Source of the DNA: an uncultured Polaribacter sp.
GTDB taxonomy: Bacteria; Bacteroidota; Bacteroidia; Flavobacteriales; Flavobacteriaceae
NCBI GenBank assembly: GCA_938084845.1
Contig: CALKEB010000011.1
Location: 1 to 64,000 of the forward strand
Length of the DNA stretch: 64,000 bases
Direction of reading: 5' to 3'
Shown one piece after another: positions 22,123-47,942 of the stretch; position 1 is the stretch's first letter, and every line of letters starts with the position of its first letter. The notes below the pieces were generated by a model, which was not told the origin of the DNA, ran no database searches, and saw only the letters and a program-made list of their open reading frames with translations. A program made the translations under genes and the position numbers.

Positions 22123-22513
22123 GGGGACGACTGGTTTTGACAGCAAGGACAGTGAATTTGTAAGCATATCGAGTTATGAAATAACACTCGTAAAACTTAA
22201 TTTCAACTTTTTAAACGGCGAAGATAACTACGCTTTAGCTGCATAATCTGAATTACAGTAAGATTAGCCTAGGCTCACAAGGTGAGCAAGCTTTATGTCC
22301 ACGAAAAGCCTTGGTTTATGGCGTTTCACTTTTGGGCATCGTAAAAATAAACATAGAAAACTTGTAGCTTTGGCAGGTTTTCGAAACTAAAAAAGCTAAG
22401 TTAAAAGTGGATTGTTCTTAATCAGCTTTTAATCGAAAATTAAGAAAGAACTACATATGTAGAAAGCGAATTAGCTGCTTGTTTGGACCCGAGTTCGATT
22501 CTCGGCGTCTCCA
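22123..22513 (+). ncRNA. ssrA: tmRNA (transfer-messenger RNA), tag GEDNYALAA
   Basis: The 5' end GGGGACG pairs with CGTCTCC at the 3' end, with a G3-U70 wobble that is the alanyl-tRNA synthetase identity element, followed by discriminator A; CCA is not encoded. The T-arm sequence GAGTTCGATTCTC is present just before the 3' end. The mRNA-like part reads from GGC at 22217: GEDNYALAA then TAA at 22244-22246, a proteolysis tag of normal Bacteroidota type. tmRNA with SmpB rescues stalled ribosomes. The gene has its own promoter and a strong hairpin just downstream. Confidence 0.97.
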
Positions 22514-22518
22514 CTTTA

Positions 22519-42279: not shown

Positions 42280-42356
42280 AAAAAGGCTTATCGTGAGATA
42301 AGCCTTTTTAATATATTGTTATATACAGGTATAGTCTCACTTATTAGTTAAGAGAG
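42280..42356 (-). promoter_or_regulatory. trp attenuator (alternative RNA hairpins)
   Basis: On the minus strand a 12-bp terminator stem (plus coordinates 42298-42309 with 42280-42291, loop 42292-42297) ends in a T-run 10 nt before trpE. An upstream segment (42328-42340) can instead pair with the left terminator arm and loop (42293-42304): six pairs GTGAGA/TCTCAC, a bulge, then TA/TA and CC/GG. A further segment (42349-42356), inside the leader peptide just after the Trp codons, can pair with 42336-42343, with one mismatch, to sequester that region. This is the classic 1:2, 2:3, 3:4 arrangement. Confidence 0.88.
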
Positions 42357-42391
42357 TTCCACCACCAAGATATATTTATATTGTTTTTCAT
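42344..42391 (-). CDS. trpL: trp operon leader peptide
   Basis: This 15-codon ORF (MKNNINISWWWNSLN) has three consecutive TGG codons at residues 9-11 and ends at TAA. It lies between a consensus promoter and the terminator hairpin of the attenuator. When Trp-tRNA is scarce the ribosome should stall on the Trp codons, freeing the antiterminator. The codons and hairpins are seen; the mechanism follows the known trp attenuation model. Confidence 0.9.
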   Translation of the reverse strand: MKNNINISWWWNSLN

Positions 42392-42398
42392 TACATTA

Positions 42399-42430
42399 CA
42401 AAGGTAAAAATGGTTTTTTAGTTGCGCAAA
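42399..42430 (-). promoter_or_regulatory. trp operon promoter
   Basis: On the minus strand the -33 element TTTG (plus 42427-42430) and the -7 box TACCTTTG (plus 42399-42406) are separated by 20 nt, matching the Bacteroidota TTTG/TAnnTTTG promoter. The trpL ATG begins 8 nt downstream of the -7 box. Confidence 0.8.
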
Positions 42431-42776
42431 TATTATAGGATATATTTTAATTTTTTAAAAATTTTAAACTGTAACTGAAAATATGAACCATAATTGTTTT
42501 AATATATAACTAATATTCGGTTATTTGTAAACATATAAAACCATTTTTGTTTATTATGGTTTAAATCATAAATATATTCTGTTAATTTACAATTCCGAAT
42601 TTATGTTGGATTTGAATTTAATGAATTAAAAGAATGCGCTATTAATTTTACCATAAATTTTTAGTGCATTTTCTTTTAATTATTGTCAAATCAATAGTTA
42701 TGATAGCAATTATTATTAAAATAATAAGTACTAAATAAAATCATTAAAAATTAATTTTTATAACATTCATTCTGTA
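42431..42776. other. AT-rich spacer between the divergent trp and gat promoters
   Basis: About 350 nt without a gene. It is very AT-rich. An imperfect inverted repeat (about 42620-42640 with 42660-42680, arms starting AATTAAAAGAA) is the only structure I see; there is no consensus operator I can name. Confidence 0.5.
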
Positions 42777-42784
42777 TATATTTG
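42777..42784 (+). promoter_or_regulatory. -7 promoter box of the gat operon leader
   Basis: TATATTTG fits TAnnTTTG and lies 17 nt before the first ATG of the Asn-rich leader ORF, so transcription would start just ahead of that ORF. No clear -33 TTG is present at the usual distance. Confidence 0.65.
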
Positions 42785-42801
42785 TGCTATTAAAGTAATA
42801 A

Positions 42802-42855
42802 ATGATAATGAAAATAATTAATAACAATCTAAATTTCATGAATCCTAATCATTAG
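42802..42855 (+). CDS. Asn-rich leader peptide of the gatCAB/aspS operon
   Basis: A 17-codon ORF (MIMKIINNNLNFMNPNH) contains six Asn codons, three in a row, and ends at TAG 42853-42855, only 2 nt before the antiterminator strand of the hairpin structure that follows. A second possible start is ATG 42808. It has a promoter box 17 nt upstream. The genes downstream make Asn-tRNA, so the peptide is best explained as the sensor of an Asn-specific attenuator. AAT is a frequent codon in AT-rich genomes, but the run, the position of the stop and the hairpins together argue against chance. Confidence 0.8.
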   Translation: MIMKIINNNLNFMNPNH

Positions 42856-42857
42856 GA

Positions 42858-42915
42858 AAAGGAAGGTTGTTTTTAATTCAGATATACATATAACCTTCCT
42901 TTGGAAGGTTTTTTT
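42858..42915 (+). promoter_or_regulatory. Asn attenuator: competing antiterminator and terminator
   Basis: AAAGGAAGGTT (42858-42868) is perfectly complementary over 11 nt to AACCTTCCTTT (42892-42902). The latter can instead pair over 8 bp with GGAAGGTT (42903-42910), which is followed by T's: a Rho-independent terminator 20 nt before gatC. A small hairpin TCCTAA/TTAGGA (42843-42857) spans the leader stop codon. A ribosome ending at the leader stop would cover 42858-42868 and favour termination; one stalled at Asn codons further upstream would leave it free and favour read-through. Confidence 0.85.
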
Positions 42916-42934
42916 ATAAACTAAAATTAAAGAA

Positions 42935-43201
42935 ATGAGTAAAATTATGACTGTAGACATTTTGTCTAGTATTAAAGGAGCACAGCCTTCAGAAGCTGTA
43001 AATAAATTATTTGATGTAATTAAAAATGCCAATTCAAATAATACCTCAATTAATACAAATCATAATCATGTAGTTTCTTTAAATAATTTAAGAAAAGATG
43101 AAGTAATTAATAGTTCGTCTATTGAGAAACAGATTATCATTGAGAACTTTCCAAAAGAAAAAAAAGGTTATTTAGTGGTTTCTAAAGTAATTGAAGAATA
43201 A
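42935..43201 (+). CDS. gatC: Divergent GatC-like subunit of Asp/Glu-tRNA amidotransferase
   Basis: The 88-residue protein has the usual GatC length and lies 2 nt before gatA. Its C-terminal half follows the GatC pattern: a His-Val segment (HVVSLNNLRKDEV, compare the family's HV..-LREDEV), then an E-NFP-KKGYLVV-KVIE end (family: NAP-..GY..VP.v.e). The N-terminal half is diverged and shorter than usual, and residues 31-51 hold nine Asn. GatC normally wraps around GatA and stabilises the complex. The assignment rests on my reading of the pattern and on context. Confidence 0.65.
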   Translation: MSKIMTVDILSSIKGAQPSEAVNKLFDVIKNANSNNTSINTNHNHVVSLNNLRKDEVINSSSIEKQIIIENFPKEKKGYLVVSKVIEE

Positions 43202-43203
43202 TT

Positions 43204-44604
43204 ATGGAGTCTCAAATACATAAAATTCATCAACAACTGGTGAATAAAGAAATAACGTGTACCAGATTGGTTCAGGATCGATTAAACTTACTAAAAGAGA
43301 ATACTTACAACACTGTAAATTCACTTTTAGACCAACAAGCCTTGAAGTTAGCCAATAAAGTAGATGCTAAAATTGCAAAAGGAGAAACTATTGGTTTGCT
43401 AGAGGGGATTCCTTTCGGAATCAAAGACGTTTATATGGTTCAAGGAACCTTAACAACAGCGAGCTCTGACATATTAAAAAATTACAAATCACCGTATACA
43501 GCAACTGCCATTCAAAAATTATTAGATGCAGGTGCAATTCCTTTAGTAAAGGAAAACTGTGATAGTTTTGGACATGGTTCATCTTCTGAAAACACGATTT
43601 TTGGTGCCGTAAAAAATGCTGTAAATTCTAATTTAGTTGGAGGTGGCTCTAGTGGAGGCTCTGCAGTTAATGTTGCTAAAGACTATACGGTTTTTTCTAT
43701 TGGCGGAGATACAGGTGGTTCTATTCGTCAACCTGCAGGTTATAATAATGTATATGGTTTTAAACCTACTTATGGTAGAGTTTCAAGATTTGGATTGATA
43801 GCCTATGCCTCTTCTACTGACTGTGTTGGTCCAATTGCAAAATCTACTGAAGATATTCGAATTGTTTTAAATGCAATAAGTGGTAAAGATGAGAAAGACC
43901 AAACTACATTTCATTCTGATGCAATATCAAAAGAACGTAGTTTAAAAACTATTGCTATTAAAACAGTGGGTTATTTTAAAAATTTTGTAGAAAATGATGC
44001 CTTAGATCATCAAATAAAAACTGATTTTTTAGCCTATCTAGAAAAAATAAAGAAAACAGGCGTTGAAGTAAAAGAGTTAGAATTCTTTGAATCTGACACT
44101 TTAGTTTCTACCTACTACACGTTAGCAATGGCTGAAACTGCCTCTAACTTATCACGACTAGATGGCACAAATTATGGTGAACGACTTGAAGCTGAAAATT
44201 TGAAAGATACCTATGCTATTACACGTTCAGAAAACTTTTCTGAAGAATCTAAAAGAAGAATTGTTGGTGGAAATCAATTATTATCACAAGGTTTTTCTGA
44301 TGAAATTTATTTAAAAGGATTGAACATAAGGGATCAAATCTCTAACAATTTCGAAAAAGATTTCAAAGAAGTAGATATCATATTATCACCTGTAACACCA
44401 GCTACTCCACCAAAAATTGGAGACAGCTTAAAAGACCCTTTGACTATGTATTTGTCTGATGCCTATACTGTTGGTTTTAGCTTAGGCGAATTACCAACGT
44501 TAACCGTACCAAAAGGAACATCAACTGGGTTGCAAATTTCAGCAGCTAAAAAGAACGATGAACTTGTACTGCAATTTGCTAATTTCTTAAATGATTTGAT
44601 ATAA
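43204..44604 (+). CDS. gatA: Asp/Glu-tRNA amidotransferase subunit A (amidase)
   Basis: The 466-residue amidase-signature enzyme has the Ser-cisSer-Lys triad: Lys74 in GIPFGIKDV, cis-Ser149 in GGGSSGGSA and the nucleophile Ser173 in GGDTGGSIRQPAG. The spacings (99 and 24 residues) match known GatA proteins. It frees ammonia from glutamine or asparagine for the GatB site, where Asp-tRNA-Asn or Glu-tRNA-Gln is amidated. The stop (TAA ending at 44604) overlaps the ATG of the next gene by one base, so GatA and the GatB fusion are made in tight coupling. Confidence 0.93.
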   Translation: MESQIHKIHQQLVNKEITCTRLVQDRLNLLKENTYNTVNSLLDQQALKLANKVDAKIAKGETIGLLEGIPFGIKDVYMVQGTLTTASSDILKNYKSPYTATAIQKLLDAGAIPLVKENCDSFGHGSSSENTIFGAVKNAVNSNLVGGGSSGGSAVNVAKDYTVFSIGGDTGGSIRQPAGYNNVYGFKPTYGRVSRFGLIAYASSTDCVGPIAKSTEDIRIVLNAISGKDEKDQTTFHSDAISKERSLKTIAIKTVGYFKNFVENDALDHQIKTDFLAYLEKIKKTGVEVKELEFFESDTLVSTYYTLAMAETASNLSRLDGTNYGERLEAENLKDTYAITRSENFSEESKRRIVGGNQLLSQGFSDEIYLKGLNIRDQISNNFEKDFKEVDIILSPVTPATPPKIGDSLKDPLTMYLSDAYTVGFSLGELPTLTVPKGTSTGLQISAAKKNDELVLQFANFLNDLI

Positions 44605-47600
44605 TGGAGCTAGAGAAATTAAATGATTTATTAAAAAAACACGGGCTTGAACTCGTAATTGGTTTAGAAACACACGTACGTTTAAACACAAAATCGAAAT
44701 TGTTTTGTTCTTGTGCCAATCAAGAAACCACTCAACCAAACACAAATATCTGTTCTGTTTGTACAGGACAAATGGGTGTTTTACCTTCAATTAATTCTGC
44801 TGCAATTACTAAAGCAATATATTTTGGTAAAGCTGTAAAATCTACTTTCGAGAACGAAGTAATTTCTTGGGATCGTAAACATTATGAATACCCAGATAAT
44901 CCTAAAAACATACAAATTACCCAATTCCATAACCCTGTGATTCCTGATGGACAAGTTTCTTGTTTTAGAAATGATGGATCACAATTTACAGTAAGCTTAA
45001 CACAAGTTCATATTGAAGAAGATGCTGCAAAGTTAATGCACGAAAAGAAGGTTTCTTTGGTCGATTTTAATAAAGCTGGTGTGCCTTTAATTGAAATTGT
45101 TACAGAACCTTGTATTCGTTACATAGAAGATGCCTCAACATATGCACAATACATTCAGAGAATTGTACAAAATTTAAAAATCTCTGAGGCAAACCTGGAG
45201 AAAGGTGAATTTAAATCTGATGTTTCAGTTTCTCTAAGAAAAGAAAACAGCTACACTTTAAATCCGCGTACTGAAATCAAAAACTTGAATTCATTTAAGT
45301 TTATGGTTGAAGCCTTAAAAGAGGAGGTAGAGAAGCAACTGAATTATTATTTAGAGCATAAAGAATTTAGACCAGACCAAACCACGGTATTGTTTGATGC
45401 CGATTTGAAGCAAACTAAAACAATGCGTAAAAAGGAGTTTGAAGCTGATTATCGTTTTATTTCTGAACCAGACCTCCCTTTTGTAAATATTAAAAATGTT
45501 GTAGAAACCATTGATGTTGATATCAGTTCTTTGCCTTTTGCAGTAGAATCCATCTTAATAAAAGGTGGTGTATTACCACAAGATGCCAAGTTTTTTACTG
45601 CAAATTCTTTACGTTCAGAAACTTTTGTAGCTATTAATAATGTAATTCAAGATCCTTCTTTTGTTGCTAAAACCTTAGTAAATAATATTAGTGTGGATGA
45701 ATATACTAATATTCATGATGTACATGATTTAATCGAAATTTTTCAGCTTTTTAAAGCAGAAAAAATTACATCAGTTTTAGTTCAAAATGCTATTATTCGT
45801 TATTTAAAAGACAGACAATTTGATTACCGTGTATACTTTGAAGAAAATACTATTTCTGAAGAAAAAATAAAATTAGCTGTTCTTCAAGTAATTAATGAAA
45901 ACGAAGCTATTGCAAAAGACATCAAAGCAGGAAATCAAGGAAAAGCCGGAATTCTTGTTGGAAAAGTTATCGCTATTATTGGAAAAGGTGCTTCAGGAAA
46001 AGTGATTCGTGAAGAGATTCTTAACGCTGTTAACGATTCGCCTTTAGCTGTTAGTCAAGAACTAAAAGCTATAGACCAAAAGCTAAAAGCAAATAACGAA
46101 AAGCAACAAAAAAGTATTGAAAACCAAGAGTTGCAACAAACTCCTATAATAATCAAGGATAACTACAGAACCCATAAAATCTCACAATTATCAGAAACTT
46201 CAGTTAAAGAAAAAGTTAGTTTATCGGGTTGGGTTTCTAGTGTTAGAGATCATGGAGAGCTAATTTTTATCGATCTAAGAGATTCTAGCCATGAAGTTTT
46301 TCAAGTGCGTTTAAGTAGAGAAACGTTTCCAAACTTAGATGAATTGGTAAAACTGAAACCAGAAACTGTAATAATGGTTACTGGAATTGTAGTTGAAAGA
46401 AACAAAGACGATTATAATTCTGGCTTAAGAACGGGTAAACTAGAATTAGAAACATCTGCTTTAGAAATATTAAACTTATCTAAAACATTGCCTTTTGAAA
46501 TAAAAAGAGCAATGAAAACAAATGAAACTACTCGTTTTCAATACAAATTTTTAGACCATAGAAATAACGAGGTTCGCAAAGCAATTGTAAACAGACATAA
46601 AGTTATTAAGTTGTTACGAGATTTGTTAGATGAAGAAGAATTTTTAGAAATAGAAACGCCAATTTTAACTGCAGGTACTGATGAAGGTGCCAGAGAGTTT
46701 ATTGTCCCTACTAGAAAACAAGTAGGTTCTTTTTATACATTACCTCAAGCACCTCAACAATTCAAACAAATGTTGATGGTAGGTGGATTTGAAAAATACT
46801 TTCAAATTGCGCGTTGTTTTAGAGATGAAGATTCTAGAGGAGATCGTCAGCCAGAATTTACTCAATTAGATATAGAAATGGCATACGCTAGTATGCAACA
46901 AATTATAGATTTAAACACAAAAATGTTTAATGAAATTGTAAGGAAAATTTATGGTAAAAAATGGATTTTATATCCTTTCGAAGTAATTACCTACAAAGAA
47001 GCCATGGATAAATATGGTTGTGATAGACCAGATTTGCGTTTTGGTTTGAAAATGCAAGACATTACAAATATTGTTAAAGAGACTACGTTCCAAGTGTTTA
47101 GTAAACCAATTGATGAAGGCGGAATTGTAAAATGTATTAAAGTTTCTGCTGCTGAGCAAGGAGACAAGCGCATGTCTAAAGGACAGATCGAAAACTTAAC
47201 TGCCATTGCTCAACAACATGGTTTAGGAGGTTTAGCGTATATCATTGTAAATAATAATGAGTTACAATCTCCTATTATTAAGTTCTTAGGCGAAAAAATT
47301 GCAGCGAATATTATAAAAGCAACTGCTGCTCAAGTTGGAGATATTGTATTCTTTTCTGCTGCAGATTATGACACTGCAAACAAAGCATTAGATGCTGTTC
47401 GTCAAGAAATGGGAAGAATCTTAAAGTTAATAAATCCGAAGGAATTAAGACCAGCTTGGGTAATAGATTTCCCAATGTTCGAAAAAACAGATGAAGGCAG
47501 ATGGACATTTACACACAACCCATTTTCAATGCCAGCTGTTTACGATTTAGAAAAACACCTAAATGGTAAAGAAGATGAAATAGGAACAATCATTGCACAA

Positions 47601-47942
47601 CAATACGATTTAATTTTAAACGGTTATGAGATTGGTGGGGGTTCAGTTCGTGCACACAAATCAGAAATTTTAGAAGCAACTTATAAAAATATGGGCTATA
47701 GTAAAGAGGAAATGCTAAAAAGTGTTGGAACCATGCACAAAGCATTTCAATATGGGGCACCTCCTCATGGAGGAATTGCTTGGGGTGTAGATAGGCTAAT
47801 GATGATTTTAGAGAAAAAAGCGTCTATTAGAGAAGTTATGGCTTTTCCTAAAACAGGTACATCAGAAGATTTGCTGTTTAATGCTCCTTCCACTTTATCT
47901 GATAAAAAAGTAGAAGAAATGAATGTAAAAATCATAAGGTAA
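44604..47942 (+). CDS. gatB/aspS: Fusion of Asp/Glu-tRNA amidotransferase subunit B and aspartyl-tRNA synthetase
   Basis: This 1112-residue protein has a full GatB at residues 1 to about 485 (LVIGLETHVRLNTKSKLFC; zinc Cys35, 37, 50, 53; the cradle with KADYR-like EADYRFISEPDLP; C-terminal YqeY-like tail) and, after a Lys/Gln-rich linker (about 483-515), a full bacterial aspartyl-tRNA synthetase: OB-fold (VSLSGWVSSVRDHGELIFIDLRD), class II motif 2 (FRDEDSRGDRQPEFTQLDIE split in two), inserted GAD domain, and motif 3 (GGIAWGVDRLMMIL). His550 in RDHG matches the residue (H31 of Pseudomonas AspRS) associated with non-discriminating enzymes that also charge tRNA-Asn. The protein would thus carry both steps of Asn-tRNA synthesis. 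There is no internal Met at the AspRS start. Confidence 0.93.
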   Translation: MELEKLNDLLKKHGLELVIGLETHVRLNTKSKLFCSCANQETTQPNTNICSVCTGQMGVLPSINSAAITKAIYFGKAVKSTFENEVISWDRKHYEYPDNPKNIQITQFHNPVIPDGQVSCFRNDGSQFTVSLTQVHIEEDAAKLMHEKKVSLVDFNKAGVPLIEIVTEPCIRYIEDASTYAQYIQRIVQNLKISEANLEKGEFKSDVSVSLRKENSYTLNPRTEIKNLNSFKFMVEALKEEVEKQLNYYLEHKEFRPDQTTVLFDADLKQTKTMRKKEFEADYRFISEPDLPFVNIKNVVETIDVDISSLPFAVESILIKGGVLPQDAKFFTANSLRSETFVAINNVIQDPSFVAKTLVNNISVDEYTNIHDVHDLIEIFQLFKAEKITSVLVQNAIIRYLKDRQFDYRVYFEENTISEEKIKLAVLQVINENEAIAKDIKAGNQGKAGILVGKVIAIIGKGASGKVIREEILNAVNDSPLAVSQELKAIDQKLKANNEKQQKSIENQELQQTPIIIKDNYRTHKISQLSETSVKEKVSLSGWVSSVRDHGELIFIDLRDSSHEVFQVRLSRETFPNLDELVKLKPETVIMVTGIVVERNKDDYNSGLRTGKLELETSALEILNLSKTLPFEIKRAMKTNETTRFQYKFLDHRNNEVRKAIVNRHKVIKLLRDLLDEEEFLEIETPILTAGTDEGAREFIVPTRKQVGSFYTLPQAPQQFKQMLMVGGFEKYFQIARCFRDEDSRGDRQPEFTQLDIEMAYASMQQIIDLNTKMFNEIVRKIYGKKWILYPFEVITYKEAMDKYGCDRPDLRFGLKMQDITNIVKETTFQVFSKPIDEGGIVKCIKVSAAEQGDKRMSKGQIENLTAIAQQHGLGGLAYIIVNNNELQSPIIKFLGEKIAANIIKATAAQVGDIVFFSAADYDTANKALDAVRQEMGRILKLINPKELRPAWVIDFPMFEKTDEGRWTFTHNPFSMPAVYDLEKHLNGKEDEIGTIIAQQYDLILNGYEIGGGSVRAHKSEILEATYKNMGYSKEEMLKSVGTMHKAFQYGAPPHGGIAWGVDRLMMILEKKASIREVMAFPKTGTSEDLLFNAPSTLSDKKVEEMNVKIIR

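Follow-up and report, generated by a model that had tools for sequence, protein, structure and literature searches.

An operon composed of gatC, gatA and a fused gatB::aspS gene, present in the DNA analysed here (the window, a 64,000-nt stretch from an uncultured Polaribacter sp.), is very probably preceded by a ribosome-mediated transcription attenuator that senses Asn-tRNA(Asn). Transcription would start just downstream of a -7 promoter box (TATATTTG), with a ribosome trailing on an Asn-rich open reading frame (ORF) in the leader RNA. When Asn-tRNA is scarce, this ribosome would stall at the Asn codons, where it covers strand 1 of the leader and leaves strand 2 free. Pairing of strand 2 with strand 3 (2:3, the antiterminator) would then occur before the synthesis of strand 4, resulting in read-through into gatC-gatA-gatB::aspS. 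When there is no ribosome, or once the ribosome has been released, an early 1:2 pairing would leave strands 3 and 4 free to form the terminator (3:4). The products of the operon are expected to place Asp onto tRNA(Asn) and then to amidate it to Asn, providing a source of asparagine in place of AsnB, with the leader closing a regulatory loop on an operon that most likely makes asparagine. If this is correct, asparagine joins the amino acids that have a leader-peptide attenuator, one such attenuator is placed in the Bacteroidota, and a possible way to regulate the synthesis of asparagine on tRNA becomes visible.

Anatomy of the leader

All parts of the leader lie on the forward strand. The -7 box TATATTTG (42777-42784) is assigned by direct reading to the Bacteroidetes type, whose consensus we take to be TAnnTTTG. 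The leader ORF (42802-42855; DNA MIMKIINNNLNFMNPNH), recognized by direct reading and in the alignment, begins with an ATG at 42802 and ends with a TAG at 42853-42855, 80 nt upstream of gatC; its 17 codons specify the peptide M-I-M-K-I-I-N-N-N-L-N-F-M-N-P-N-H, which contains six Asn residues, three of them consecutive. Strand 1 (42817-42837) holds the Asn codons and, in the predicted folds and the consensus fold, pairs with strand 2 if the RNA is free of ribosomes; the same folds contain a small hairpin (42843-42857, TCCTAA..TTAGGA) that spans the Pro and stop codons. Strand 2 (42858-42877), seen both by direct reading and in the folds, is the 5' arm of the antiterminator as well as the partner of strand 1. 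Two bases after the leader stop, its first 11 nt (42858-42868, AAAGGAAGGTT) are the exact reverse complement of 42892-42902. The latter segment belongs to strand 3 (42890-42902), which direct reading and pair counts show to be common to the antiterminator and the terminator. Strand 4 (42903-42910) and a T run complete an intrinsic terminator (to 42915): positions 42892-42899 pair with 42903-42910 in an 8-bp stem with a TTT loop, followed by T's through 42915. A ribosome positioned on the stop codon would cover strand 2, and the 2:3 and 3:4 pairings exclude each other. The original prediction had described the -7 box, the 17-codon ORF with its six Asn codons and its run of three, the stop located 2 nt before a perfectly pairing 11-nt strand, and the 8-bp stem with its T's, and direct reading recovers every one of these at its predicted position. 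The 1:2 pairing, between the Asn codons and strand 2, was absent from that account; it fills the set of 1:2, 2:3 and 3:4.

Several features of this site stand out within the window. Of its 775 short ORFs that start with ATG (8-25 aa, on either strand), only two contain at least six Asn codons, and both are nested starts of the leader itself. A terminator scan of 42300-43000 (shuffle mean 0.0) returns a single site, at 42892-42915, and pair counts likewise place an intrinsic terminator between the leader ORF and gatC. Among the eight terminator-like hairpins that a script located in the window, that of the leader has an upstream competitor (within 45 nt) of -13.6 kcal/mol, the next best being -5.2.

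Alternative pairings and the position of the ribosome

The predicted fold of the full, ribosome-free RNA contains 1:2, the stop-codon hairpin and the 3:4 terminator. The 1:2 and 3:4 pairings are predicted together in 45 of the 45 distinct leader copies collected from relatives (see below), and an unguided consensus fold of their alignment yields 1:2, the stop hairpin and 3:4 alike. For the window and three relatives, none of 200 shuffles in each case folds as stably (z from -2.6 to -7.0); for a longer piece of the window, 11 of 200 shuffles do.

To represent nascent RNA, the RNA made up to the end of strand 3 was folded with the footprint of a ribosome masked. When the ribosome occupies codon three of the run of Asn codons, strand 3 is predicted to pair with strand 2 in 45/45 leaders, with a median of -15.8 kcal/mol. 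With the ribosome on the stop codon, 2:3 is predicted in 0/45, and at most -2.4 kcal/mol is left, largely because strand 2 then falls within the assumed footprint. For footprints that extend 8-14 nt past the A site, the predictions are 2:3 in 45/45 at every one of the first eight codons and in 0/45 at the stop; with 6 nt, 2:3 appears at the stop in 3/45. In these models the two positions of the ribosome correspond to the alternative states expected of a classical attenuator.

Folded to equilibrium in the presence of a stalled ribosome, the full RNA is predicted to contain 3:4 in 42/45 leaders and 2:3 in three, the window copy included (median energies, -15.0 for 3:4 vs -12.1 for 2:3). Since 3:4 is favoured in nearly all copies, antitermination must be kinetic. 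Ribosome-free RNA that ends at strand 3 is predicted at equilibrium to form 2:3 in 40/45 leaders and 1:2 in five, and thus ribosome-free termination would require a 1:2 pairing that forms early and persists. Reliance on the order in which the strands appear is a customary assumption for attenuators.

Conservation of the leader among relatives

Of 212 named loci in a scan of the genome collection, the 80 best were retained; their genera include Polaribacter, Flavobacterium, Lutibacter, Tamlana, Algibacter, Hyunsoonleella, Flavivirga and Tenacibaculum. Within the genus, a GatA of the window type (75-88% identical) is complete in 27 other genomes and present as a fragment in G004. A readable gatC with some upstream DNA is available at 106 loci, 28 from the same genus and 78 others (L103 and L104 are without upstream DNA). 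At 49 of the 106, a pattern search finds an Asn ORF with strands 2, 3 and 4 downstream; two further leaders missed by the pattern (L091, 95.7 bits, and L107, 115.8 bits) are recovered by a covariance model, bringing the number to 51/106 overall and to 24/28 in the genus. Four of the 49 pattern-found copies are identical to another, leaving an aligned set of 45 distinct leaders; two rows (L017 and L023) are one base out of register in this alignment (A1), which slightly lowers the pair counts.

Each of the 45 leaders has 6-10 Asn codons (median 9), so that the window leader, with six, is among the Asn-poorest. The distance from the stop codon to a GGAAGG core in strand 2 is 4 nt in 26 leaders, 3 in 12, 5 in three and of other lengths in four; that is, 3-5 nt in 41/45. 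In 49/49 leaders, a TAnnTTTG box is found no more than 150 nt upstream of the leader stop. Columns 18, 21, 24 and 36 are third positions of Asn and Phe codons, and 22 of 22 minority letters there are T or C and synonymous. The comparison with relatives that the original prediction had called for thus reveals a leader ORF and an alternative pairing that are conserved, together with their spacing, across 45 distinct copies.

The covariance model (R1) gives strong matches (E ≤2e-10) in 24 of the 58 same-genus genomes, one in each. These are the gatC leaders, which R1 matches by construction; the informative part is that there is no comparable second site, the next best match having an E value of 2.9e-5 (G033). 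When R1 was run on 296 genomes of the order, with few candidates scored per genome, it found at least two further matches, in G337 and G312, each immediately upstream of gatC. Inspection by eye and an ORF list revealed no leader with strands before asnB in the 26 readable upstream regions of 27 (no start was found in L066). At two asnB loci (L042 and L065), a short five-Asn ORF (MIFTFNNNNSNCLFAS, MMFTFNNNNSNCLFAS; M.FTFNNNNSNCLFAS) overlaps the likely asnB promoter.

The leader is missing at 55 of the 106 gatC loci, where the covariance model scores at most 32.2 bits (one of these, L123, has only 158 upstream bases). Leader-less loci comprise all the Flavobacterium and Lutibacter loci seen, 5/6 from Tamlana and some from Polaribacter (L073, L081, L090 and L126, and, from the same-genus set, L011, L016, L027 and L028). 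On the GatA tree, presence of the leader is clustered, requiring about 12 changes vs 34 in shuffles, a count that is approximate since L103 and L104 are scored as leader-less though their upstream DNA is unread, and that of L123 is short. Given the 55 loci without it and these roughly 12 changes, the attenuator is an add-on in part of the family, repeatedly gained or lost, and the operon does not depend on it. The many relatives with and without the leader form a natural comparison set in common environmental bacteria. In many leader-less relatives (for example, L011, L016 and L074), a promoter-like stretch (AAAACTTTTGTAATTTTG...CTTAAAAGTTT) is seen by eye directly 5' of gatC.

Covariation in the paired strands

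Across the 45 leaders, 93.9% of the alignment cells that make up 1:2, the stop hairpin and 3:4 are paired, compared with 27-62% when the pairing is slid. Both-sided changes occur in 10 cells of this terminator state (five in 3:4, four in the stop hairpin and one in 1:2), against a shuffle mean of 2.5, with 0/500 shuffles as high, and the covariation score of the terminator-state pairs lies above all shuffles. The number of pairs with a both-sided change (three) is matched by 128/500 shuffles and the number of further pair types by 310/500; among the slide controls, a slide of +1 gives 4 pairs and 7 cells, and one of +3 equals the covariation score. In the stop hairpin, a C-G to U-A replacement is compensated in 4/45 leaders: a Pro to Ser change is matched by a change past the stop codon (TAGG to TAGA).

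The 2:3 helix is paired in 94.4% of cells, vs 94.5% in column shuffles and 38-62% when slid, and contains no both-sided changes. Such a lack of covariation is expected because strand 3 serves two partners. At one position, a G to A change in strand 3 disrupts neither helix: its partner in strand 4 has gone from C to U, and the pair formed with strand 2 shifts from U-G to U-A. Counts of 10/4 vs 2/29 link a leader codon (AAT or not) with a base in strand 2; they amount to 3-5 independent contrasts and are not significant on the tree. The attenuator stands as a real, conserved structure, and it very likely operates in the way proposed.

The operon and the proposed synthesis of asparagine on tRNA

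The operon begins with a divergent gatC (42935-43201; TIGR00135, 28.4 bits, below the cut-off of 47.1) and continues with gatA (43204-44604; TIGR00132, 450.7 bits, just below the cut-off of 481.1, with the Pfam Amidase family well over its own) and the gatB-aspS fusion (44604-47942), all on the forward strand. The original prediction had named the operon gatC-gatA-gatB/aspS; gatB and aspS are not separate genes and form one of 1112 aa, with GatB at residues ~15-476 and AspRS at ~520-1110. The GatB part is above its family cut-off, with GatA slightly and GatC clearly below theirs. Only the later part of GatC matches the family; its middle is Asn-rich and variable, in relatives also. Of the 80 named relatives, 78 have an ORF of at least 900 aa that begins with GatB; in L112 and L120 it is incomplete. 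NCBIfam has a model for an AspRS-GatC fusion; no GatB-AspRS model surfaced in the same scan. In 78/78 fusion ORFs, the AspRS part has a His that aligns with a His of the Pseudomonas aeruginosa Asp/Asn enzyme, and the free AspRS has Lys at that position in 8/8 cases. We take this His (His31) to be a marker of relaxed tRNA specificity; Gly82, presumably a second marker of relaxed AspRS, has no match in the fused AspRS.

The genome that contains the window (83% complete) also encodes a second, free AspRS along with AsnRS and GlnRS, and its matches to AsnB are weak only; complete genomes of relatives that carry the operon give the same picture for AsnB. Since GlnRS is present, GatCAB is not required there for Gln-tRNA. 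AsnRS is found in 57 of the 58 same-genus genomes (above the cut-off in 56, in two pieces in G004); the remaining genome, G012, which is 67% complete, has AspRS-like matches only and no AsnRS. A separate AspRS frame of ~590 aa occurs beside the fusion frame of ~1120 aa in the window's own genome and in many others among the matches listed.

Gene content follows a simple rule: a genome has the fused GatB-AspRS operon or AsnB, never both. AsnB is counted here as the ~557-aa type, a tested example of which scores 948 bits to asparagine synthase B (cut-off 499). Among the 58 same-genus genomes, the operon is present in 29 (a fragment in G004), AsnB in 27 (a fragment in G056 and a copy with one in-frame stop in G020), both in none and neither in two (53-57% complete); asnA is found in 0/58. 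In a draw of 90 genomes from the family, one per genus (E ≤1e-60), the operon is present in 15 (the window's own genome included), AsnB in 65 (two fragmentary), both in none and neither in 10, five of which carry another AsnB-like protein. If kinship is ignored, the probability of zero overlap by chance is 1.5e-14 for the genus and 7e-11 for the family. Other AsnB-like proteins, above a broad-family cut-off, occur in 9/29 and 5/15 of the operon-bearing genomes; those in G013, G024, G029, G036 and G040 pass this broad cut-off, with scores of 244-293 vs the asparagine synthase B cut-off of 499. These proteins may act elsewhere, and some may also make asparagine.

The exclusion between the operon and AsnB, together with the presence of AsnRS and a free AspRS, indicates that the operon most likely makes asparagine, and does so on tRNA. 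The original prediction had these genes make Asn-tRNA; with AsnRS present and AsnB absent, they are better named an asparagine biosynthesis operon than just a source of Asn-tRNA. The tRNA itself, tRNA(Asn), was recovered by pattern in 30 of the 58 same-genus genomes, and carries U1-A72 in 20/20 of those recovered from the 29 operon-bearing genomes. As a discriminator for the operon, U1-A72 was rejected, as it is also present in 10/10 recovered genomes without the operon.

Asp-tRNA(Asn) would not normally reach the ribosome, and so a ribosome on the leader could test for completed amidation. In such a scheme the fused AspRS-GatB, together with GatA and GatC, would build Asn-tRNA(Asn) in successive steps, and the leader of this dedicated operon would sense the product of its own enzyme. 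It is conceivable, though we hold it to be somewhat doubtful, that the leader reports on transamidation in this way (that is, on glutamine supply and GatCAB activity) and not just on free asparagine.

Alternative explanations

The leader peptide might stall the ribosome by virtue of its own sequence, NFNNPN-stop, perhaps together with a small molecule, in which case the Asn codons would not sense charging. Conservation of the Phe residue and of a P/S-N-x-stop end, in addition to Asn, is what such a nascent-peptide arrest would lead one to expect. However, RNA pairing explains these letters: in the consensus fold, GAAG of strand 2 is the partner of the UUUC that includes the Phe codon, and the Pro codon pairs with bases around the stop; where Pro has become Ser (4/45), the accompanying TAGG to TAGA change retains the hairpin. 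Moreover, one codon of the leader varies among Arg, Leu, Asn and Thr. The synonymous T/C third positions show that the ORF is coding, and as such fail to separate peptide arrest from a sensor of charging. On balance, arrest by the peptide is very unlikely. A constitutive terminator that insulates gatC or fixes a basal level of expression, preceded by an Asn-rich ORF that arose by chance, is hardly probable either. AAT codons are frequent in AT-rich DNA, the element is missing at 55/106 loci, and even a stalled ribosome leaves 3:4 favoured at equilibrium in the majority of copies, all of which would fit such a terminator; against it, there is a single such ORF in 64 kb, this is the sole terminator with a strong upstream competitor, and ORF, spacing and competitor are conserved together in 45 leaders.

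Control by a T-box or a ligand-binding riboswitch, in place of a ribosome, is extremely improbable. T-boxes control tRNA-ligase genes in Firmicutes, including asnS in a few species, but the part of a 2008 survey available to us records none in seven Bacteroidetes/Chlorobi genomes and none before amidotransferase genes (PMC2494555). At the leader, the T-box family of Rfam has no match and no Rfam family reaches its gathering score, the nearest of the leader type being Phe_leader (20.8 bits vs 55). Furthermore, the conserved core of the element is an ORF. The reading preferred here thus remains a ribosome-mediated attenuator that senses Asn-tRNA(Asn).

Relation to known systems and neighbouring elements

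The trp, his and pheST attenuators of enterobacteria consist of a leader ORF, strands that pair as 1:2, 2:3 or 3:4, a stop codon near strand 2 and an intrinsic terminator. The principle of ribosome-mediated attenuation has been outlined previously (PMC1183508). The Polaribacter leader shares with the enterobacterial ones the codons for the product amino acid, the three pairings, the closeness of the stop to strand 2 and the intrinsic terminator; it differs in the amino acid (Asn), in an operon that would make Asn on tRNA, in the extra hairpin at the stop codon and in its host, a member of the Bacteroidota. Attenuation is a known kind of control, of which no earlier case for asparagine or for the tRNA-dependent Asn pathway was found in the open-access literature. 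The original prediction knew of no Asn attenuator for GatCAB genes, and this literature likewise yielded no description of an Asn leader or attenuator before gatCAB, which is weak evidence of absence, as subscription attenuation surveys were outside the scope of this search.

In Clostridium acetobutylicum, a T-box controls gatCAB/aspS by sensing the charging of tRNA(Asn). The pathway and the charging that is sensed are the same as those proposed here, but the T-box binds the tRNA directly, without a leader peptide. Tryptophan operons provide a comparison from within the phylum: a Bacteroid-trp leader (RF01692, 62.9 bits) is present at 42297-42411 on the reverse strand, upstream of trpE and arranged back to back with the Asn leader. 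Both are leader-peptide RNAs placed before an amino acid operon in this phylum; however, RF01692 is a tryptophan family whose model does not match the Asn leader (no match in 42600-43000 with E up to 5, that at 42297-42411 being the sole one in the window).

With regard to the pathway, Deinococcus, Thermus and Bdellovibrio have GatCAB beside AsnRS and GlnRS for tRNA-dependent synthesis of asparagine. In addition to GatCAB, this synthesis requires an AspRS able to accept tRNA(Asn) and a tRNA(Asn) with U1-A72; Bacteroidetes are already counted among the clades with such a gene set (PMC4206432). In the portion of that paper available to us, a second AspRS within this gene-set class is reported for Deinococcus-Thermus only (PMC4206432). 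The present case resembles these bacteria in the combination of GatCAB, AsnRS and GlnRS, the apparent lack of AsnA and of the ~557-aa AsnB, and a tRNA(Asn) with U1-A72 (PMC4206432). In contrast, the AspRS here is of the bacterial type and fused to GatB, a second AspRS is free, and an Asn leader precedes the operon.

Two other elements were seen in the window. At 42605-42680 on the forward strand, in the interval that separates the trpE and Asn leaders, inspection by eye reveals a promoter-like box, a mini-ORF (MLDLNLMN) and a terminator-like hairpin. By exact pattern, an element of this kind (mini-ORF, for example, MFDLNLLN) is present in 11 of the 58 same-genus genomes (L228-L238), in every case beside a divergent trpE; it is perhaps a small RNA or another leader. 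A tmRNA with the tag GEDNYALAA is located at 22123-22516 on the forward strand.
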